From Angiostrongylus vasorum (lineage: Eukaryota; Nematoda; Chromadorea; Rhabditida; Metastrongylidae): a stretch of 64,000 nucleotides of DNA. Within the stretch, counting starts at the first letter, position 1, and the number at the start of each line of letters is the position of its first letter. The stretch is from positions 62,001 through 126,000 of the forward strand of contig JADANN010000334.1 of NCBI GenBank assembly GCA_018806985.1, read 5' to 3'. The translations under genes and the position numbers were made by a program. Shown here one piece after another: positions 3,346 to 61,200 of the stretch. The notes beneath the pieces are model-generated. The model saw nothing but the letters and a program-made list of their open reading frames with translations. It did not search any database and was not told where the DNA came from.

Positions 3346-4378
3346 TCCTTGCGTGACGTAGCATTCATGACTTGGGCGCTATGTTATCTGCTTGTCTTAT
3401 GCTGATATTGGTGAAGAACGGTGAATTTTCCAGTTGCAAAATTGCTGTACTGCTCGTCGTTTTGTATACCGTATATCCCAGTCATTCAAGACGTTCATGT
3501 CCGCCACTGTCTGAATAGAATCAAAGGCCTTAACGTCTGTGGAGATAAGTCGTAGCTGTATCTCGTCGTCACGATTCTTCAGATGCTTTTCGTAACTATA
3601 CGGTCCGAATGAAGCTCTTTCTGGAGATTTTAATTGCTTGCATGGCCAACCTTCTGTGTGAGATTTTATCGAACCTGTTGATAATTTTTCCTTACGCTGG
3701 GATAACTGGAGTGAAGAGCCCCTAGACGACAGACACCAGTCGAATTGAACTATAAGTAACGATATTAGTCGATTTCCCTTCCTATTAAACCATGGTATCC
3801 TGCTACATTTTAGTGAACAGAACATTCCACTGTGACGGATATAGCGCAATGAAAAAAAATCATGCCCCTGAAATCCGGGAAATGTTAACATTGTTGTTCT
3901 GTCTACTGTTCTAACCGTCTTCTTCACGCTGTGTGCTTAACATCTGGACGAAAACCTATCTATTCTGTTAATCCTGGGAACATCTGTTCTGGATTTACAA
4001 CATCAACTTTTAGATTCGGCGAAAAGCTGCGCCAGCTGCATTTTGTCGCTCCATTGAAAAATACTTGCAAAGCGATTTCTTTCCAGTTTCTAAATTTCTA
4101 ATTGTTCTTGCTGGCTCTAAATAACTCTACTAATACAAAATGGAGAAGTTTTCTTCAGGTATGCAGTAAGACTGAAGCTGTACATCAATAGTGATAATGA
4201 CAACTGAAAGGAATCATTTAACGCCTCGGTTGGGCTACATTGCTAGCGTAAAGGTAATTTCCTGGATCTTAGCGACTTTCTGGTTGTATTGATAGGGTTT
4301 TTGTCGAGTAAGATTCGCATATTGTCTTCATTGCCGCGCAATTACCTATGTGTTCTGCAACAAGAGTCCATTTTTCAG
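3346..4378. other. No confident feature; may hold GPAT 5' exon(s)
   Basis: A 176-codon open frame on the minus strand (3927-3397) has no recognisable domain. The start codon of the downstream acyltransferase gene must lie here or further upstream. ATG at 4140 with a GTATGC donor was tested, but its phase does not fit the exon at 4379. Confidence 0.35.
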
Positions 4379-35384: not shown

Positions 35385-35429
35385 CAGTAGCTGACGTTTC
35401 GGCAGTATCGCCTTCTTCAGAGCCTGGAA
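35385..35429 (-). ncRNA. Hammerhead-ribozyme-like motif, PLE copy 1 left arm
   Basis: On the minus strand: CCAGGCT, CTGAAGA (core CUGANGA), an extra A, GGCG/TGCC stem II, GAAAC, GTC, then AGCTACTG. Stem I can form as GCU/AGC plus CAG/CUG. Stem III would be only the 2 bp implied by GAAACGUC. Confidence 0.5.
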
Positions 35430-36324: not shown

Positions 36325-36369
36325 TTCCAGGCTCTGAAGAAGGCGATACTGCCGAAACGACAGCTACTG
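36325..36369 (+). ncRNA. Hammerhead-like motif, PLE copy 1 right arm (cleavage triplet changed)
   Basis: Same layout as the left arm on the plus strand, but the sequence after GAAAC is GAC, not GTC. That breaks the NUH cleavage triplet and the A-U pair of stem III, so it is probably inactive. Confidence 0.45.
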
Positions 36370-36709: not shown

Positions 36710-36935
36710 AAAAAACCGACTTTCTATAAATTTCGGCATAAATAATCGATGTAGTTATTTTTATGTTCTTACGAACTGCCCTTGTTGAGCTGATGAGAGG
36801 TTGGTACAAGTTGTCGATGTCGTTGTTGTTGTTGTTGTTGTTGTTTTTGTTGTTGTTGATGTTGTTGATTTTGTTGTTGCTGTTGTTCGATGGCTAACGT
36901 TCCGGCGATTTCGCCTTCCTCAGAGATGTGCTGTT
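36710..36935 (+). mobile_element. PLE terminal fragment with hammerhead-like motif
   Basis: CCGACTTTCTATAAATTTCG at the left end, a (GTT)n run at 36816-36884, then on the minus strand CTGAGGA, A, GGCG/CGCC and GGAAC near 36927-36900. GAAA has become GGAA. Confidence 0.5.
36816..36884. repeat. (GTT)n microsatellite
   Basis: Imperfect GTT repeats inside a PLE fragment. Confidence 0.8.
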
Positions 36936-40479: not shown

Positions 40480-40690
40480 TTTCAAAAACCGGCTTTCAAT
40501 CAACCTCAGCTTAAATAATCGATATTTCTCATGGATTACTAAGCTAACACGAGGTCGTTGTGAAACTTTTTGTTCTTCTAACGTTTCGACTTTTTCGTCT
40601 TCTGCAGAGCCACATGGACCTGAATCGATTGTCCGCAATTGTTCCTTCCTCCGTTGTGGCTCATCGTGACCACATCAAGTCAAATCCACT
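40480..40690 (+). mobile_element. PLE terminal fragment, decayed hammerhead-like motif
   Basis: CCGGCTTTCAATCAACC at the left end. On the minus strand the motif reads CTGCAGA (core damaged), A, GAC/GTC stem, GAAAC, GTT. Confidence 0.45.
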
Positions 40691-42477: not shown

Positions 42478-42645
42478 GTATTTGATAAGCTAACACAAGG
42501 TTGATAAGGAACTTTACTGGACTGACGTTTCGACGTCTTCGTCTTCCTCAGAGCCGACGATTCTAGTCGATCTCCACAGTTTACATCGACAGTGCGGAGC
42601 AGCATAAAGTCCTTTATCAACCTCATGTTAGCTTATCAATGAAGG
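42478..42645. mobile_element. Miniature snap-back PLE derivative with hammerhead-like motif
   Basis: Inverted ends GATAAGCTAACA...GATAAGGAACTTTA (from 42483) and TAAAGTCCTTTATCAACC...TTAGCTTATC (to 42640) enclose about 90 bp. On the minus strand the enclosed motif is GGCT, CTGAGGA, A, GACG-AAGA-CGTC, GAAAC, GTC, AGTC. Its stem II differs from the larger PLEs by a compensating pair. Confidence 0.55.
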
Positions 42646-43487: not shown

Positions 43488-43705
43488 ACATGTGGTTTGT
43501 ACGAAAAACTTGAAGTTGAATGAAGTTCCCCTTTCGAGCGATGCTCCCTCCTCTGGATTCGATTCGATGTGGCGACGAACAATTAATTACTTCCAATAAC
43601 GACCACCTATGGATCGTCGAGATGGGTTAGTCCGGCTTTGAAGAATACGAGGACGTAGGAACGTTAGCCAAAGAAAAGTTACATAGTAACCTCGTGTTCA
43701 CTCAA
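43488..43705. mobile_element. Probable miniature snap-back PLE derivative
   Basis: Ends ATTGAGCTAACATGTGG and GTAACCTCGTGTTCACTCAAT are a diverged inverted pair related to the ends at 42483 and 59450. The interior hammerhead-like core is no longer readable. Confidence 0.35.
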
Positions 43706-45680: not shown

Positions 45681-45726
45681 CAGTAGCTGACGTTTCGGCA
45701 GTATCGCCTTCTTCAGTGCCTGGAAG
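45681..45726 (-). ncRNA. Hammerhead-like motif, PLE copy 2 left arm
   Basis: CTGAAGA, A, GGCG/TGCC, GAAAC, GTC, AGC on the minus strand. The first stem I pair is disrupted (GGCA instead of GGCT). Confidence 0.45.
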
Positions 45727-46222: not shown

Positions 46223-46267
46223 CTTCCAGGTTCTGAAGAAGCGATGCTGCCGAAACGTCAGCTACTG
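46223..46267 (+). ncRNA. Hammerhead-like motif, PLE copy 2 right arm
   Basis: CTGAAGA and GAAACGTCAGC are intact; one G of stem II is lost, which weakens it. Confidence 0.4.
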
Positions 46268-49402: not shown

Positions 49403-51002
49403 TGTTTCTTTTTTCCCGTGGAAATTACTAAACATAGTTAATGCTTGGTGAATAATGTGAACATGTATTTCAAAACATGGCACCTGAATGAGTGCGCAGG
49501 GTAGGTTGTGAGCCCATTAGATCAGCATTCCTGCTCAGTGGGGTCCAGAAATATTCCGTTATGTATCACCAGAACACTATTCAAGGCGCTCCTTGAGAAG
49601 CTGTTATCGCCATTCCTTTTCTTAATCAATAGAATTTTGTGAGAAGTATAGTTACATGCGCCTAGTTCTCTCACATTCATTCATTATTGTGACACCGACT
49701 ATGGAAGCTAAACCACAATTACATCTATACAAGGGTTTTCCAATGATTTTACCATGCTATAAGAGTGAAAAGGTGTCTTATAATGTGGAACTGAAGTGTT
49801 AATTCACAGCAAAAAATCTCCATATCCTCCTCGGTGACAATGTCTCTGTGGTGGGTACTATCTTTCTCTGCATGACGTAATGAACGACAGCAGAGGAAAC
49901 TCAGTTAGTTGAAACCCATCGATCTTCCTTTGTATGCGTGGAAACCGGCTTAACTTTGTGATTATAACGTTCATGTCTAGTGTTATATTTGTATTTGTGT
50001 GTCCAGGTTATCATTCATAGGCACATACATATGACCTCAGCGATTGTAATCTTTAATCTTCATTCCCTTTGCAATCGGATGGTTAAAGAGAAAGGCAATA
50101 AACTCTGTTCTTTTTACGTGAGGTATTTGCCGAGTTGGTTTAGCTCGTCTAAAGGATAAAAAGCGCGTGTACTTTAGTTTATGGTCTTAGCAAAGAACTT
50201 TGCCTTGGCTTTCCTGCCGTGTAGTTTCTATTCTGTAAAGAGTGTATTTGCTACGTGGCTTCGTCCAGCAGTGGTCGTAATTATGTGTAACGTGTCCGCC
50301 GATCTTCGATTTGCGTGAAACAAGTTGTTCATAACATCATTCCTACTGCATCTCCATTAATCTGACCACATTTTATCCGGTTTACATAGCGTCCACGTTT
50401 CTGAAGAAGTCATTAAGTCAAATTAGTTATAATTATAGATTTATTAGTGGAGGGACAGTCTGATCTTCTTTTTTTCCACCACGTCAGTACTCTCGCTTTC
50501 AAGCTCGCTTGCTTTAACCTGTAGGTAAGTCGTTAATCGTGTCATCTAACCCAACAAGACATACAAAGCCGAGATCTTATCGTCTTGAAGCATGCAGGAG
50601 AAGTCCTTCCATAAGCATTGATTTCTTTGCTTTTATGCAAGTACCCGATATTTCCACACGCGTAATTGAAACCGGTCAGCTCTCTCTTCAGCTCGCTGAT
50701 GTTTGGTATTATTAGATCACTGTTGTTAGCAAAGTAAAAATTATGTTCGGTTGTCAACTTTCACCGTCACGTCCCACACCAGTTCTCCCATGGCCTTTAT
50801 TCATGAATGGCACCCATTGTTTTTGCTGATATAGTATCGCATCTCAATGTTAATGATGGTTGTATTGTAAATTATGGCTTTCGAATCGCTCTATAGTCCA
50901 TGAAAGTCCTTTGTTTTGAAGATAGGGAATCCCTTATTTTTTTTGCCAAAGTTCTAGTTCCCATTTTTATGTCGAACGCCGTTATAAATGCCGACAAGTC
51001 AT
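49403..51002. other. No feature recognised
   Basis: A 71-codon minus frame (50757-50542) has no recognisable domain. Confidence 0.4.
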
Positions 51003-51287
51003 AAAATAAAGGATAAGGAATAAAGCTCTCGCCGTTGATCAATCCCCGAAAGATTCGGCATTCATCCGACTTCATTAAGCATCGTTAGAAGTGAGTGAAT
51101 GCATATCTGGCCAATACGATGACTTGCGGTGGCCTACTGATGTATAGAATCGGTGTTGTTATCCTCTAAGATAAATCTATTACCGATTTTTCGACCTCAG
51201 AACGACAGAAAACTTGGTGACCTTGAGGGTGCAGGGTCGATCCAATGTGTATTACAGGGCGCCTCTAACCACTGCGCCATACGCGCC
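51003..51287 (-). repeat. SINE-A copy, full length
   Basis: Minus-strand head GTATGGCGCAGTGGTTAGAG near 51283; tail TTATTCCTTATCCTTTATTT at the left end. Confidence 0.75.
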
Positions 51288-52673
51288 GACAAGTCGTACT
51301 ATCACGAAACGTCAATGAGTTTTACAACCGTATGAATTTAACCTTGCCACTTTGCCAGGATATACTGAACCATTTTCGAAAACATTAGTTACGCAAATAC
51401 TCAATTCTGTTGATGCACTTCATGGTTAAAGCGGATAAAGAGCCTGTGGGAAACACAGAAGCAGATTACTTGATGGACGTCGCTGCCGTGTCGGTCTGGG
51501 TATATATAGCTTCAGCCAGCTGGCATTTCTACTATCTCTTTTTAAAGACGTGATTTATCGCTTCTTTACACCACTTTGAGAGAGTGTTTATCTGCAGGCA
51601 GTTCGGAATGTGGAATAGGATATTTTTTTTGTAAAAAGAAGGGACTCCGAACCGTTTTAATTCACAGCTGTTTGATTCTATAATTCGGGTTGATAAGCCG
51701 CACTGAATGTTGTCCATATACACACAAGCATACCCACGTAATCCTGTATAGCATACACGCATCCAAGAGGCATACTCCATTCCTGTAGAAGAATGAAGAA
51801 CTGTAGGGTGTAAATCGACTTGCCTCTTAGAGAAAATGTTATAAGTAGAAAATTACTGTTTGTCAGAGTTCAACACCCTATCTACTACGTGAGGACAGTC
51901 GGGAAACGTAGCCTAGCGATTATCCATTTCGACATTCGTCGTGTGAAAAAAATCTGTCGGCTAAGGTGTTCTCGATAAATCATATAGATTAACAGTGTGC
52001 AATAAGTAACCATTGGTAGTACTGGATGTAAGTAGTGTAGTGGTCCCTGTGAACTTTGAAATAATTAACGTTGTCACGTTCATCCAATCAACAGTTCGTA
52101 AGAAAAAATCGCTAGTCGGAGAGCATCTCAAGGCTATGTGAAATTAGTTCAGCTCATTGAGAAAAATGTGTATAACATAGGACTGTAATGGGTAGAGGAC
52201 GAGAAATCAAACGATAAAAACTTATCAGCATAAGGTGGTCGCCTTGAATCACGCGTTACCAATCTCGTTCTAGGTTTGTTAAAACAAGTGGATCACTCTT
52301 TTTATCTAATTAAACATCCGTAACAAGCTGGAATCATACATATCGATCATAGCTTTGGTGGTGGTAGATAATCCACTTTTCTTTCACACTTTCGTAAAGG
52401 CTTTATCGATGGTTTCTTCTGTTTCAGGTAGGTTCCCGCTAGAAAGATCCTAAAACTCCACTGTTCTATTTGAATGTGGTATTCTCAGAAAAATTTCCAT
52501 GCTTTTTTTCTTGTCGTATCCTTCACTTTTGCTTCTAAAGTGCATCACACGCAGTGAACGATTTTTGATTATTATCTGTTTTTAAATGAGAAGGAGTGCG
52601 ATTGCACAACGTGTGTGGGTAAGTTTTTACTAAAGAAGTCCTATGAAAGTCAGTGAATTCTGAACTCCGTTGA
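51288..52673. other. No feature recognised
   Basis: An 82-codon minus frame (51780-51532) is Cys- and Tyr-rich but has no domain I know. Confidence 0.35.
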
Positions 52674-52970
52674 AAGATAAAGGACAAAGCGTTCAGCGTT
52701 GAACCAATCCTTGCTGTGGGATGTACTGTCGCATTCGACTTCAAGTCGTTTGAGTTGACTAAATAGGTATCTGGCCTGCACATTGACTTACGGTGGCCCA
52801 CCGATGTACGTGGTCAGTGCTGCTAACCTCTCAGATAACTCTTTCGTACCAATTTTCGAAGCTGGAAGGATGGAAGTCTTGGTGAGTTCGGAGTTCGGGC
52901 GTAGGATCAAATCAGTGACCGATCCAGTGAACACTGAGGGTACTCGTAACTATTGCGTTACCCAAAACCT
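52674..52970 (-). repeat. SINE-A copy, diverged
   Basis: Tail GTCCTTTATCTTT at the left; head GTAACGCAATAGTT near 52960 on the minus strand. Confidence 0.6.
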
Positions 52971-53099
52971 CCTGAACCATTGTACACGTTTGAACTATCG
53001 TGCGTGGATTATTTTTCTCAGCACTCAGGTCTTCCGTCTCCTAGAATCGACCTCTACAGAGCCATACGGATGAGAGCTGTAAATAATAGTTGGATACTT

Positions 53100-53450
53100 G
53101 GATAGTTTAATCGCCCGTCCTCACTGGTTGCGCGGGCTCCAGCATAATCTCCATTTTTCATGGAGTTTTGCTGGTTTTGCCGTTAGTGGTTCCCTGGAGT
53201 CTCGAAGTCAGCCTGGTGAAAGTCGCAGTCCTTATGGATCAGAGGGAGGTTTGCCACCGATGCGACAAGTATGATACCAAGACAGAGAGTCGATCCTGGT
53301 ATTGCTTTACTCTTAGCTAGGATGCCTAGTGGAAACGCCCGATTTCTTCTTAGATTGAGAGACCGTGCTGGATGGATGGATGAAACCGCTCGATGTACCT
53401 CGCAGTCCAACACCCTAGGGAACACCTCCCAGCCACATTGAGATAAGCAT
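53100..53450 (-). repeat. Solo RTE 5' module
   Basis: On the minus strand GGGAGGTGTTCCCTAGG near 53430, then the shared body, ending GCAACCAGTGAGGACGGGC at about 53115 and followed by two TATCCAAG units. Confidence 0.65.
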
Positions 53451-54036
53451 GAAATATAAGCGTCAAAACTCAGCGCTGGACAAATTTGCGACTCCAAACA
53501 TTGATTTCAATGTTTGCGGAACAGAATATGATTTATGCTGCCAATCTTAATGTATGAGTCTCAGAAATGTGTTAGATGCAATGCATTTGTTGCTAAAATA
53601 TTAGCCGCTTTCAACTTTAAACCAATATATTTTAGCTCAGGGTGAACTTTACTAGCTGATTTAAAAGAGTTATAGGAATACGCAGATCGTTATCTCCAAA
53701 CGCAATTTTCCTGTCGTACACACATGAAATGCTGATTTATTGAAGCTCACTGGGTGGACCATCTTTCTTTCACACCTGAGCGTTTAAGGCTTGCTTTTCA
53801 AGTTCTATAGCCCTTAAGTACTCTAATTGTTGAAAAATTATCAGCCGTTGCAGTTATCGAATACTCACTTCACTTTGTCGACTATGTGTTGATTAATTCC
53901 ACTTATTTAATGAGGAAGTTCCATACGAGTAATAAATCCCACGACCGACTTTCTATTAAACTCGGCATTGATCAAATAATTCTTCGTATTCTTGTTGAGC
54001 AAACACGAGGTGTTATGTTTATTCTTTATTCACGAA

Positions 54037-54079
54037 CAAGCTGACGTTTCGGCGGATTTCGCCTTCCTCAGAGGCTGGA
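54037..54079 (-). ncRNA. Hammerhead-like motif, PLE copy 3 left arm
   Basis: CTGAGGA, A, GGCG-AAATC-CGCC, GAAAC, GTC, AGCTTG on the minus strand. The stem I 5' strand is AGCCT instead of AGGCT, so stem I is weaker than in the right arm. Confidence 0.5.
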
Positions 54080-54744
54080 AAAGTCAAGTTCACAGCAGTC
54101 TATTCGGCCAAACACCTCCATAACCAAACAGAGAAAACGATGAACCAAGATTTCAATCACATTGAACACAGCTTCTGCACACTCACCGCTTTTCTATGAG
54201 GCTTCCACTGAGTATGTCGCGTGGAGACCAACCGCACAGAATCCACATGGAAGCGTAATGTGCCCCTCCTGTCATGAACGGGTAGACCACTCTGTGTCCA
54301 TATAAAAAGAACACCTAGTTGGTAAACGTAAACCAAATACCCCACTAGGCACGCACAGGGATCCAGGGACATAACGCGGAGGACTTTGAAGTACAGGTCA
54401 CGAACCTCGCACGGGAATCGCGAGACACAAGCGCGCAAACTCTCGAGGCGTTCTGGATCAATTCCAGAAATCCGAAAATGAACCGCAGGGAAGAATGCTT
54501 CATTATCACGCGTGATATTGGGCAATATATAAGCCTATTATTCTGATGGGAGGGACACATTACGCTTCCATGTGAATCCTGTGCGGTTGGTCTCCACGCG
54601 ACATACTCAGTGGAAGACTCATAGAAAGCGGTTAGTGTGCAACTAGAAGCTATTCTGTGTTCAATGTGATCGAGATCTAGGTTTAGCGTTTTCTTTGTCT
54701 GGTTATGGAGGTGTTTGAACGAATAGATTGCTGTCAACTTGACC

Positions 54745-54792
54745 TTTCCAGGCTCTGAGGAAGGCGAAATCCGCCGAAACGTCAGCTTGTTC
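54745..54792 (+). ncRNA. Hammerhead-ribozyme-like motif, PLE copy 3 right arm (best copy)
   Basis: CAGGCT pairs with AGCTTG to give a 6-bp stem I. CTGAGGA fits the core CUGANGA. GGCG/CGCC gives a 4-bp stem II with loop AAATC, and GAAA follows. CGTC gives a minimal stem III and a GUC cleavage triplet. One extra A lies between the core and stem II, as in the other readable copies. Confidence 0.6.
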
Positions 54793-55126
54793 GTGAATAA
54801 AGAATAAAAATAATACCTCGCTTGCTCACCAAGAATACGAAGAATTCCATACGAGTGTTAGATTTTCGTCGACGCTGCACTTTTCTTTCGGCATTACATG
54901 AGATCCATGAATTCTCATCTGGTCTTATCTTGTAACTGCATTTTATTTCTTTCTAGTTTGGTCTGTTTTTTTTGAGAAATAATTTCCATAGTTTTTTGAA
55001 GGACTAATATGGTTGTGCCAATATGTGCTAGATCATAGCGCCAACATATGAACCAGTCCCTTGGAAACCATCGTTACTTCATATTTTTTCTGGCTTCGCT
55101 GAATGTCGCAGTTTCCTCAATTTTAC

Positions 55127-55133
55127 TTTCAGG
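55127..55133 (+). promoter_or_regulatory. Splice acceptor directly before an ATG (candidate spliced-leader site)
   Basis: TTTACTTTCAG ends one base before ATG at 55134. In nematodes such an acceptor without an upstream exon is typical of SL1 addition. A cis-spliced 5' UTR intron would look the same. Confidence 0.4.
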
Positions 55134-55228
55134 ATGAGATTTGTGTGTACAACACACGTAATAAAGCGCTTATGTTTCCAATCACGTCACGCTCACAGTG
55201 CTCCCAAGGTCAAGGAATTCAAAAAAAG
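55134..55228 (+). CDS. pyc-1: Pyruvate carboxylase first exon (targeting peptide), frame uncertain
   Basis: From ATG 55134 the frame reads [18 protein letters not shown] then [13 protein letters not shown]. It is basic with no acidic residue until near its end, as expected of a mitochondrial presequence. It ends in a run of seven A at phase 2, whereas the next exon needs phase 0. From ATG 55172 a different frame ends at phase 0 but has no targeting character. Confidence 0.5.
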
Positions 55229-58200
55229 GTGAGAGCGCTGAGTTGGTTGAATTACAGTTTTCGTCGGAATCATCCATGAGGATTGATGTGATATTCCTTT
55301 GTTTTCTTCAACGTAGTTAGTTTTAGTCATAGTGTGCATCAATTTAGATATTTGACGTTGAGATTAATAAAATACGCACAAAATGCATTGGTTTCAATGG
55401 ATGCGTGGGGTATCGGATCGGACAGTGTGCATTGATCTCAACACAGTTCCTTTTTCAGATTTTTAGACAAACTTAGCAACACCGAGTTTACTTGCTGATT
55501 TCTTTGCTTTCTTTTGCCAAGTTGACGGCTTATCCCAACAACGACGCTGTGTTAGATGCGGCATCTGAAAAGCTGTTTCTTACACTTAATAATTTACGAA
55601 AACCTTAATTTGAAAGGAAAATTATGCATTGAGAAGATATAGGGTAAAGCATTTGGCATTGGTCAGACCACACAGGAAGCTAAGCATCGCCAGAGGTGAT
55701 TGAAGACGGTTTGATGAATCCGAACGCGGCGTCAAACCAACGTCCAGGTGTACGTCGTTGCAAGACATCTTTAGGCACTGCGCTGCATGCGTCATCCTAG
55801 AACATTCGAAATTGTTATCCAATCTTACTTGATGTTTTTGTTACTTTGGATTGTCTTTTGTGAAACTATTGGTGAAAAACGACTCAATATATGTATTAGG
55901 TCATTTAAACTTCATGGAGCACTACTGCCTATGTGGTGATTTTATAGGTGATGGTAGCAAATCGAGGTGAAATATCAATACGTGTATTTCGTGCCTTAAC
56001 TGAATTGAACATAACATCGGTCGCTATTTACAGTGAACAGGTGTGCTCATTTGAGATTATTTCTTCATTTACGTATTTATTTCTTTATTTGGGGCATGCT
56101 TTGTCTTCTTATCCGAATCGCTTACTAAGTTATTTCCTAGTCTATCATTGTACTACAGCTGGAAAACATATGTACGCAGCCCTTAGGTTTTTAAAAAAAA
56201 GTGTTGTTACAATAAGGAAGAGCGGGTGATCACTGGATCAAAATGGAAATGTTTTCCGTACCCATAAACATCAAAGCCCATTTATTCATTGTATCCTTTT
56301 TCTTAATACTTGGATACTTGTACGGCCCGTCCTCGCTAGTTGTGCGAGCCCCAGCATAATCCCCATTTTTTTGGAGAGTTACTGGTTTACCCATTGTGCT
56401 TCCCCAGAATCCCGAAATTAGCCTGGCCAAAGTCTGCCTCAGGTCGTCACCACCACAGCAGTCGTAGTCCCTATGGATCAGAGGGAGATTTGCCACCGTG
56501 CGACTAGTATGATACCAGGACAGTGGTCGATCCTGGTGTTGTTTACTCTTAGCTAGGCTTCCTAGTGGAAAAGCCGAACTCCTTCTGTTTGGAAGACCCT
56601 GCCGGGGGAATGAATCCCCCCGCTGTACATCGCAGTCCGACACCGAAGAACGCCTACCAGCCACGATGAGGTGGGAAATCGTTGGGACTTTTTCTTAATA
56701 ATAATAATCTATACAGCAAAGGTGGCAGTGGGGCTAAGCTTTGCTGCATTCTACTATACGAGACATGTAATTAAAATATTCACAAAGCCGTACCTCAAAT
56801 TTAGGTAATTTCACATATACATGGTGATTCTTATATACCAACTGGAGTGGGAATGATTACTATAAAGGTTGCGAGTCTTTCTCTGCCAGTGATATTAATA
56901 TACAAAGAGATGACAGAGCGCCTTTCAGTCACCTGCGAACTAAGCTCATGAGCTGGTGTTTTAATACAAGACAATATGGGGCAATCTGGTCCAAAATATT
57001 GTTCGCAGCTGTTTCCATGATCTGTGGAAACTCTTTATCCATTTATTTGTCGTTAATAAAGCAAAGGGAAATCATATTAAGGACAAGCACTCGATGCATA
57101 GACTAAAGGCTGATGAAGCATATTTGGTCGGTAAAGGACTACCACCAGTTGCAGCGTATCTCGCCATTGATCAAATAATTGACACTGCACTTAAGGTACC
57201 TGCAGTTTTTTTTGACACTTCTGAGACAAAGTATTCGCTGAAATCTTTCCTGACCGCTTTATTATATCTTGCAGCATGACATCGACGCTATTCATCCAGG
57301 TTACGGCTTCCTGTCGGAACGCTACGATTTTGCTCAAGCATGCATTGACGCTGGAATTACTTTCATTGGCCCCAGTCCAGAAGTAATGGCTCGGATGGGA
57401 GATAAGGTATTTTGAGGACAACTGCACTCAATACAAATGCCGGAACAATAGTGCAAACTTATGTGACTGATGTTTGCTCAGATCAGACTATATTATTGCG
57501 TTCTTAAGAAATTAATACTAACAACACTTAATCTATTGATACTCATCAATGTTGTGGAGAAAAAAATATTATTCTGTAACTAGTTCAAGGAGAAAAAAGT
57601 GCTATTTACTTCTAATGATTTCCTTCATCTGCTTGAACTCATTAATTTTTTTTAATACAGAGAGTAAGCTGAGAAGATCTGTTTAGAGTTTACTGCCATG
57701 GATACCGTTGAGTCACTTCTCTAGGTTTAAGTGATGGTTTATGAGCTGTTTTATCACCAGTGCAATATTTTTAACTCCATTAAATCGCAACACCACATTT
57801 ATTTTGCCCGACAGATAATAAATTTCGATTACTTCATAGCTACGCGCTTTCTCCACTGTTCGTTTTTAGCAGACCGTCGTCGAGAAAAGAGAAGAATATG
57901 AATCCAGATGTAGATGAATTTAAAAAATTGAGAATACCGCATAATTAGAGAACCGGTATTGAATCGTCTGTTCGGAGTAATTTTGCGAATCACAATAACT
58001 CTCTTACGATGGTAAGAACTTAACATAATTGTTTTTTATTCTAAATGTGGTTTCTGGGTAATGCTACTTACTGGCCGTCGAACGGGGATGTATAGTAGGA
58101 GTTTATGCCCACTCTTCCCTGCAGAGTCTCGCAAGCCAAGGAGGTTAACGTTTAAACTCAGCTCAGAGTAAACTAGTGCCAGGAATCACTTTCGTGATGG

Positions 58201-61200
58201 TAACTGCAGTCTCTTAGTAACTAGCTAGCACTAGATAACAACTTGTGAAAGGCTAGCACGGCTTTTCATGCTCCTCGAACAGAACTTCATGCCAAACCAG
58301 AAAAATTACATTGTGAAATGGAAATTGATATTCTCTGGATTATTCGTGACTCTTGAGGACGAGCCACTCAAGTATTTAAGGAAGCAAATATTATTCAAAT
58401 TAGGGTATTTTATGGAATTTTACAAACTTCAACTACTAATACCAGGCCGCGCATGTGTTCGCGGGTTTTCTGCCACATTCCTTTCAGATAAGCTTCCTTG
58501 CTGAGCACTCTCCCACAATTTCGCTGGATTTTTAACTGTCTACTTCGCATCGCTTTGTGGAGGATGTAGGTCTGCTTTTAAGGAAGGTGGTTCCAAATAT
58601 TTCAGGTTCTATGCGGAAAACTGTTCGTCCGTGCATTTTTTGTGAGAAAATAGAGCGAATTGATAGCTTCAAGAAATAACAAAAAGGTTAGCAGCACTAT
58701 CTCGATACATCGGTAGACCACCACGAGTCATTGTAAGGGCCAGTTATGCATTCATTCACCTCCAAGCAAAGCTTAATGAAGTCTAATGCATGGCGCATTC
58801 TTCAGAGATTGATCAACGCCGTGAGCTTTATCCTTTTTTTATCCTTTTAATCACATTTGTCCAAAGCAGTGATTTTTTAGTCAAGTTTTTTCTTTGTGAT
58901 TATTTGTACCTGGATGACTTGTTTTCACAGTGTTGGGTAGCCCAATGCACATCTTCAACTAGACTAGTATGTTATTGGTTTGGCAAAAATATTCTCTTCG
59001 GCTTGCATTGTGGAAATCTGTGCCAGGTCGTCGTTAGAAGTAGTCATTTGCACGTTCCTAAATTTCGATCTAACTGCATTTTTAGCTGGATTTGCGAGTG
59101 TAAATATCGAACTCGTCAACTAGCATGACCTCAAAATTACCACGAACGATTTGGCACAATTTGTCACGTCCATTATGCATTGTGCTGCCTGTACAGTTAG
59201 AGGCACTTCGTTGTTTTCCACTCTTAGTTGATCTTCAGAACAAAAGCATCTGAGGAATTCTATGAATGTTACGGAAAATCTAGACTTGACTTCAGCGCAT
59301 CCACAGCTCTGCATAGAAGTGGCAGTGGTTTTTCCTTGTGACGGAAGAAAGAGTTTTCCTTAACAGATTGCACAGAGCGGAAAAATATTTCAAAAACCAA
59401 GTTTCCTTTAACCTCGCTATGACTAGTCGGCATGTATTCCTTTATCGATAGGCTAACACGTGGTTCGCAAATAAACTTTGTTCGGCTAAAGTTCCAACGT
59501 TTTCGTCTTCCTCCGAGCTAATGTCCCGAGTTGTTGTCCACAATTGTTCGTACTCTCAATGTGGTATCTTTGTCATCGTATAGAGCTTATCAGTGAAAGA
59601 ATACATTTTGATTAGTTTTCTTTAAATTGGAAGTCGTAGATCTTTTGTGGGTTATTGTCAATAATCGATTCATATTTTGACTAGGACTTCGAAAACATCA
59701 CACCATCACTTGTGGCTTGCATCCTTATCTCCATGTTGTTGCACTGTTCCCTAGGTGTGGTTTTTATTTTCAGAGAGTTATGAGGGTCTCACTTGCTGCA
59801 GGGAAGCGATAATGCAAGGACAAAACTTCACTTTTTTTTTTGTGAGAGGATATGGCAGATCTTCCTTTGAGCCGTTCTGTTGGCTGCTGACACATGTTAA
59901 AGCGGTTATGTTCATGCGCTGACTTCCTGAGTTGCAATTTTCTCAGTTTATATCCTGACTTGGTCGTATATTCCTAACCACTGTGGTTGGAAATGTGTTT
60001 TTTGAATTCTTGCGAAAGTGGTCAAGTGGATGAGACAACGTGGATTCAAAAGTGGTACGTTCTCGGCAAGGCCTCTGATTTTTCTTGAGGTTTCAGAATC
60101 GTTGGCGCCTGTTGTGCTACTGAGAGATGGGCCCCAGCTGTAGATCGTGATCGTGCGCATAGGAACAATTCCATGTCTTTGTTATTGAGTTTACGTCCAA
60201 GAAACGACAAATTAACTGTGAATTCTATTTCCCAAAGTTTCAAATGTCTTCATGTTGAAGATATGGTTAGATTCGCACGTCGTTTTATTTGGAATCTTTG
60301 ATTCTTTTCCGTATTTCTCAAAAGTTCTTAGTCAGTTGTGCTAAGGAAAGGTATGGGCATATGATTTTTAAATATCTGTTCTGTTTGCTGTCGCCCAATA
60401 TCTCTCAACTTCGGAATATTTGATGAAAAAAGTCCTCACTATTAAGCCAAAGTTTTTATATCCCACTACGTTTAGCCCTTTGACTCCAATAGTGGTGTCG
60501 GTGAAGTATTGAATCGCCCACGTCGTCAATTCGCATTTCATTAGAAGTTACCGCCAACGCTTTCAGCCTTGTCAGGAACTTGTTTTTTTCTAGTTGTACT
60601 CATTTTATTTCATTTTTGATGACCGGACATCACGTTTTATGTGGATTCCACTACTTCTTTTATTGGATCTATTTCTTTGCATTCTTATTCAAGGAAGGTC
60701 TTCGGACTTTACATATGGGTTCGGCTGCTCCTTGAGGATTCTCGGTATTCTTTATGAATGTTAGTACTGGTCGAGCTGGTTCTTCCTTGAATCTTGACAT
60801 AGCCGTGTTGTGGTGTTCCTAGATCATCATCAAAGGCGTTTGTCATCTTTTGTGGATTGGTGGGAGTGAGCTGGTCGAAGAAACGTCTGGCATCAATTTA
60901 TCAGCTCTGGAGAGATGGAATTTTAATTCATCTGGCGCGTGGTCGAAGCAGGGTCTTCTGCGTGTTAAAAGAGATGACAACCACTGCGCTATCCTCTCGA
61001 GAAAGCTGCACCGAGGACCATTTCTGTACTGTTTGTTTCGCCCAAAATAATGTATAATATGATCTTTGGTCCGCCACACTGTTTTATCAGTTTCATTAGT
61101 TGAAACTGATATTGTTTCAGATATCTTTAAGGAAAATTGTTTGTACGAGGGTTATTTGGCAAAATCTCTCTACTTGATATATTTCCTGTTTTCATATGGA

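Follow-up and report, generated by a model that had tools for sequence, protein, structure and literature searches.

The window, a 64,000-nt stretch of the Angiostrongylus vasorum genome, carries one insertion of a Penelope-like element (PLE) at 53931-54844, flanked by a 12-bp target duplication. The insertion consists of two arms that stand head to head, and in each arm a hammerhead motif points outward. The tails of the two arms differ in length by 51 nt. The element is a dead derivative, truncated and broken by a frameshift. The coordinates of its parts, and of related copies elsewhere in the window, are collected in Table 1.

Table 1. Hammerhead motifs and associated features in the window (PLE, Penelope-like element; R1, covariance model described in the text)
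Feature	Position	Strand	Basis
Target site duplication TTCCATACGAGT, left copy	53919..53930	.	flank comparison
Left arm: 5'-truncated PLE 3' end (pseudo-LTR), long tail, ends 112 nt past predicted cut	53931..54269	-	
Second hammerhead, facing outward; C.C mismatch in stem I (CAGCCT)	54037..54077	-	model R1
Right arm: 5'-truncated PLE copy, short tail, 3' end 61 nt past predicted cut	54277..54844	+	
Remnant of GIY-YIG frame end in two frames (54306-54359, 54364-54543); stop codon 54544-54546	54306..54546	+	
Family A hammerhead motif, minimal type I, with stems I and II and ACGU as stem III	54749..54789	+	sequence inspection, genome count, descriptor, covariance model
Stem I, 6 pairs including one G.U	54749-54754/54784-54789	+	sequence inspection
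Catalytic core CUGANGA (CTGAGGA)	54755..54761	+	sequence inspection
Extra A between CTGAGGA core and stem II	54762	+	sequence inspection
Stem II GGCG/CGCC (54763-54766/54772-54775), loop AAATC	54763..54775	+	sequence inspection; pair 2 varies between families with pairing preserved
GAA, ACGU (self-complementary stem III) and C17	54776..54783	+	sequence inspection
GAAA	54776-54779	+	sequence inspection
Cleavage triplet GTC	54781-54783	+	sequence inspection
Target site duplication TTCCATACGAGT, right copy	54845..54856	.	flank comparison
Family B hammerheads, pair 1	35387-35426 and 36328-36367	- and +	arm comparison
Family B hammerheads, pair 2	45683-45722 and 46227-46265	- and +	arm comparison
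Further diverged hammerheads, n=5	42518-42557, 36890-36929, 40578-40609, 43632-43671, 59482-59521	-, -, -, +, -	model R1

The hammerhead order is intact at 54749-54789 (+): stem I CAGGCT/AGCTTG, the core CTGAGGA, an extra A, stem II GGCG/CGCC, GAAA, and GTC. The first-pass annotation had described stem I, CTGAGGA, stem II, GAAA and GTC, and inspection found each of them in place; however, its layout passed from the core to stem II without the extra A. The motif has the conserved CUGANGA, GAA, A15.1-U16.1 and H17 elements in the correct order. Stems I and II are present and largely kept across families. Stem III is ACGU without a loop, so that a single molecule can form no more than one pair, A15.1-U16.1, closing a loop of 2 nt. 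Because ACGU is self-complementary, four stem III pairs are possible between two molecules. The earlier view that stem III (given as about 2 bp) is too short for a monomer therefore holds. Judging from the hammerhead model, the predicted cut site lies after C 54783.

A hammerhead descriptor (5-bp stem I, CTGANGA, 4-bp stem II, GAAA and UH), applied to both strands of the window, matched this site and no other. On 6,336 dinucleotide-preserving shuffles of the window, it gave 23 matches, or 0.0036 per window. We searched the 280-Mb host assembly (468 contigs) with the 29-nt core CTGANGAAGGCGAAATCCGCCGAAACGTC, allowing any base at position 5, and found 1,310 occurrences (633 + 677). The reversed control pattern did not occur. 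The fold energy of the motif was unremarkable and uninformative (z = -1.02; 31 of 200 shuffles folded equally well).

An Rfam hammerhead search, the check named by the first-pass annotation, was negative at the gathering score over the whole window and at up to E = 10 in both 50001-58000 and four sister loci, in runs that had no positive control on a known PLE hammerhead. This silence may arise because PLE variants are minimal, having been published as lacking helix III. A covariance search with a family-specific model was positive. Model R1 was built from nine sequences, none from family A (families were assigned by eye), and the 42518-42557 and 36890-36929 copies were among its training rows. 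It found 54749-54789 with 53.5 bits and E = 4.5e-11, and the second copy at 54037-54077 with E = 7.2e-9. E was below 1e-4 in 11 of the 13 matches listed, three of these 11 being members of the training set.

Across 10 family representatives, the catalytic letters CTGANGA were kept in 10 and GAAAC in nine, with N7 varying, and stem II was paired in 97.5% of cells. The whole structure was paired in 85.0% of cells. The corresponding figure for shuffles was 79.3%, with 7 of 500 reaching the observed value, and sliding the structure gave 11 to 44%. A 16-row alignment gave 83.8% versus 80.0% (3 of 500 as high). Pairs changed on both sides showed no excess over shuffles, either among the representatives (three such pairs; 306/500) or in the 16-row alignment (241/500). 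At stem II pair 1, 13 of the 29 genomic copies changed on both sides still pair, by eye, versus about 14 expected from letter frequencies. Neutral decay of single copies would give this lack of covariation. In stem II pair 2, family A has G-C, whereas a family with the core CTGATGA has A-U. A pattern forcing a change on both sides of this pair had 1,632 matches (812 + 820), versus 4 (1 + 3) for controls, and 90 of the 100 matches listed were A..T by eye. By these sequence comparisons, what stands at 54749-54789 is a real, small hammerhead motif and not a chance resemblance.

We compared 620 nt around the hammerheads of the families (420 nt upstream, 200 nt downstream). The window's family C and E copies have a single block of 34 to 35 nt in common with family A, namely the hammerhead. 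Family B copies match family A in the hammerhead block (45 to 46 nt) and also, varying from copy to copy, in either the coding end or a short, weak stretch. Window copy D, among the matches listed for the same span, matched B and C and had none to family A. The CTGATGA form is the second abundant one. It has this canonical core and stem II GACG/CGTC, as does the hammerhead at 42518-42557 (-) in its stem II, and an exact 32-mer of the form (family C) had 226 copies versus none for controls. In one such copy (L126), stem I is TCGGCT/AGCCGA, versus CAGGCT/AGCTTG in family A. The family C tail resembles that of family A by eye. However, tblastn with the family A PLE protein found nothing in six of six family C loci (L126-L131), each covered for about 1.5 kb on either side. 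Family C may be short, old or non-autonomous.

Family B, a second PLE family with the same hammerhead, forms two more outward inverted pairs in the window. Their arms are 421 and 285 bp long, with about 93% identity. Their target duplications, of 8 bp and of 13 bp in low-complexity sequence, are both ambiguous (12 mismatched controls, at most 7). In the hammerhead at 36328, GAC replaces GTC at the cut. We also considered the 42518 (-) and 43632 (+) copies as an inverted pair and rejected it, because only the 35-nt motif is common to them.

In sister copies of family A, a reading frame with RVT_1 and GIY-YIG domains (Pfam) lies on the 5' side of this hammerhead, in the same orientation, and therefore the carrier is a PLE. 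This bears out the first-pass placement of the motif in the terminal repeat of a PLE derivative. In the L041 frame, GIY-YIG is above the Pfam cut-off and RVT_1 just below it (28.3 versus 29.6 bits); in the L039 frame, RVT_1 is above and GIY-YIG below (19.2 versus 22.6 bits). The order of RT domain and then GIY-YIG endonuclease is seen in these two sister copies, and the window copy keeps only the endonuclease end. The sister copies and the window remnant place the hammerhead in the pseudo-LTR, and inverted pseudo-LTRs, an optional tail and a short target duplication are all present. The named relatives of the RT frame, among 120 of 200 matches listed, came from Ancylostoma, Haemonchus, Necator, Heligmosomoides, Nippostrongylus and Angiostrongylus. 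Together with the relatives of the antisense frame given below, they point to an Angiostrongylus-like nematode as the probable host. A PDB sequence search with the RT-EN frame gave no match. One sister locus, L063, is a partial tandem with hammerheads at 4124 and 7105 on one strand, 2,981 nt apart, and the next reading frame has its first ATG 76 nt downstream of the predicted cut. Such a sense tandem, which could form dimers, is present in L063 and absent for the window copy.

We compared the flanks of 12 distinct outward hammerhead pairs, including that of the window. Seven, that of the window element among them, share a flank word of 12 to 13 bp, and each of these seven has one long tail and one short tail. 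The other five share only 5 to 7 bp, and 132 mismatched arm-pair controls share at most 11 bp (median, 7). In all seven duplication-bounded pairs, the 3' ends of the arms lie past the predicted cut. This result suggests that their templates were uncut at that ribozyme.

We then mapped 5' ends in two samples, with positions given relative to the cut. The first consisted of copies containing the ORF start; 40 of 532 candidates were scored and 39 of the 40 were read upstream, the query's own place being left out. Nine were flagged as reaching the beginning of the sequence read, but one (L073) more likely ends near -69, which leaves eight that continue. The ends of the other 30 fall between -40 and +129 and include at least three duplicated junctions. 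None ends at 0; the nearest are at -6 (the same junction twice) and +5. With one duplicate merged, 4 of 29 ends lie at -40 to -6 and 25 at +5 to +129. Such a small number upstream of the cut is also what one would see if the cut formed the 5' end of some template RNAs, so that the ribozyme may have been used in part.

The second sample consisted of copies reaching +297, with 40 of 492 candidates scored (the query's own place, 16 from the first sample and 23 new). After three duplicate junctions were merged, there were 29 distinct ends: 6 at -20 to +49, 19 at +50 to +154 and 4 at +155 to +299. Seven more copies extend as far as the sequence read, which stopped a few bases from the cut or past it; one of these, L124, is ambiguous near +3. 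Finding 19 ends in the best 105-nt window has a p of 0.007 against a uniform null. These near-full-length copies (L064-L125) have 5' ends clustered at +50 to +154, around the 3' ends at +61 and +112. An exact pattern of GTC joined across the cut to AGCTTGTTCG... showed 664 copies reading through. With three different bases before the cut, the pattern found no copy starting at the predicted cut. It demands an exact 24-base tail, and a random flank passes in 27 of 64 cases, so that such copies, if few, could be missed. In the small samples read, the end sequences give no sign that cleavage sets the ends of most insertions.

The cluster at +50 to +154 has more than one conceivable cause. We consider it unlikely that near-full-length copies were made by once-around copying of a unit-length circular RNA, released by two tandem hammerhead cuts. 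Such copying would leave a shared start and end zone, which fits the cluster, and it would give the PLE ribozyme the role that it lacks. Alternatively, PLE protein bound at the next unit could block the enzyme and leave the same mark.

The same ends bear on what the block is kept for. It could serve as a hairpin in the RNA to which the PLE protein binds, or work as DNA or as a promoter, with self-cleavage vestigial in this family. The absence of copies starting at the cut by the exact pattern, the 19 of 29 mapped 5' ends at +50 to +154 and the 3' ends past the cut in seven of seven duplication-bounded pairs all agree with this reading, as does the report that ribozyme mutants of an anole PLE left in vitro insertion unchanged (PMC11167929). 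However, a binding hairpin would need no such core, and here the catalytic letters are kept, N7 varies and the stems change with pairing preserved. In addition, the scarcity of 5' ends upstream of the cut would allow for the cut being used in some cases. We therefore regard such another function as unlikely.

Still more improbable is a non-autonomous retrozyme-like repeat, that is, a short tandem circular-RNA element instead of a PLE end. A type I hammerhead in a short repeat, and family C with its six loci lacking a match to the family A PLE protein, would suit such an element. However, animal retrozymes are described as tandem repeats of 150 to 450 bp, most with a workable helix III (PMC7229834), and here the tails and inverted pairs match PLEs and the arm retains the last part of a GIY-YIG frame (54306-54543), which contradicts this alternative. 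A chance origin of the hammerhead likeness, despite the silence of Rfam and the ordinary fold energy, has almost no probability left, being refuted by 0.0036 sites expected per window, more than 1,000 copies, conservation across families and the match to model R1.

We consider it very likely, then, that the motif is a minimal type I hammerhead of a strongylid-nematode family of endonuclease PLEs, and that the window element is a dead derivative whose ribozyme is a passenger, silenced in the full-length transcript. When PLE units are transcribed in tandem, two sense copies of the hammerhead (2,981 nt apart in L063) could pair through the ACGU stem III, or alternatively the PLE protein may assist the ribozyme. 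By analogy with the chemistry of the class, the cut would follow GUC. Catalytic activity itself, and its dependence on a dimer or on protein, we infer from this class. At the window insertion, reverse transcription would have been primed on both target strands. On one side it may have started 61 nt downstream of the ribozyme and on the other 112 nt, in each case passing through the uncut ribozyme before stopping early, and the products would then have joined head to head. Two-sided target-primed reverse transcription seems the best account of the inverted pair, given published Penelope anatomy, in which the pseudo-LTRs are inverted, one of them may carry a tail and the target duplications are short (PMC3846280), and given the behavior of the anole PLE protein, which is reported to cut and extend both target strands and to start inside the RNA (PMC11167929).

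The first-pass annotation had proposed that this copy may self-cleave, probably as a dimer. The dimer idea fits the class: dimer cleavage is published behavior of PLE hammerheads (title of Lunse et al. 2017; review, PMC7761336), published variants are minimal and lack helix III, and L063 offers a tandem. The ribozyme of the anole PLE reportedly cut only with protein present (PMC11167929). For the window copy, however, self-cleavage as a dimer is not borne out, because this copy is 5' truncated, frameshifted, part of an inverted pair and predicted to be held in antisense pairing. Since the insertion is inverted head to head, the window copy has no second sense copy of its own. In the energy model, the monomer with stems I and II has -12.5 kcal/mol versus -13.5 for the best fold, and the hammerhead dimer -23.3 versus -28.8 for the best dimer fold; the dimer hammerhead is thus allowed by the model but is not its most stable fold. 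In the predicted fold of the 53931-54844 transcript (-545 kcal/mol), 40 of the 41 motif bases pair with the antisense hammerhead. A full-length transcript is therefore predicted to bury the ribozyme in antisense pairing, with the partner 0.7 kb upstream. The window copy could be active only if its transcript began within the right arm and another copy supplied the sense partner, and in this copy the ribozyme is probably a passenger.

The window hammerhead is a fresh example of an already known kind, the PLE minimal hammerhead. As described in citing papers, the minimal type I PLE hammerheads (Cervera and de la Pena 2014; Lunse, Weinberg and Breaker 2017) resemble family A in their location in the pseudo-LTR of GIY-YIG PLEs, their near lack of helix III, their more than 1,000 dispersed copies and their tandem pairs as possible dimers. 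By the same accounts, family A appears to differ in host and sequence, in its loopless self-complementary ACGU and in the extra A. In Poseidon PAc of Anolis carolinensis, as in family A, the hammerhead is reported to lie beside the ORF start, the ends to lie past the ribozyme and the tail to lie between two reverse-transcription start sites (PMC11167929). However, the PAc ORF starts at stem II, whereas the first ATG in family A is 76 nt after the cut, and PAc cleavage is reported to be protein dependent (PMC11167929). Pen2a_Av of bdelloid rotifers and its relatives share with the window element head-to-head repeats, short target duplications and pseudo-LTRs that are inverted, one of them with an optional tail, of 31 bp in the rotifer elements (PMC3846280). 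By comparison, the two tails of the window element differ by 51 nt, and the target duplications here measure 12 to 13 bp. The word hammerhead has no occurrence in the main text of that paper. Metazoan retrozymes likewise have a type I hammerhead in a repeat element, but are described as short tandem units without a coding remnant, with a helix III ranging from one pair and a tetraloop (amphibians) to stable (PMC7229834). Among the titles listed in our literature search, none dealt with hammerhead PLEs from Angiostrongylus or another nematode; a paper on a reniform nematode mentions Penelope-like elements twice (PMC7960049).

The role of hammerheads in the life of PLEs is stated to be an open question (PMC7761336). 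With more than 1,000 copies, several families and readable ends, this genome allows DNA alone to test whether cleavage marks the copied RNA. The lack of an end peak at the cut in the natural insertions sampled agrees with the report that the anole ribozyme is dispensable for insertion in vitro. The arms extend through a 3' ribozyme that was left uncut and into what follows it, and none of the mapped copies starts exactly at the cut, which points the same way.

Several minor observations concern the element and its surroundings. Ribozyme arms also stand back to back elsewhere, with outward hammerhead starts 29 nt (L056, 435-464) and 46 nt (L060, 1529-1575) apart. An antisense frame of the window element, 54345-54857 (-), runs through the hammerhead and resembles parts of its three database relatives, annotated as RING-type ligase, Kunitz-domain and ShKT-domain proteins, all three from A. 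cantonensis or A. costaricensis. This protein likeness probably reflects gene-prediction artefacts or an exonised repeat. About 1.1 kb beyond the element, an exon at 55951-56043 (+) encodes the beginning of a biotin carboxylase N-terminal domain (Pfam PF00289).
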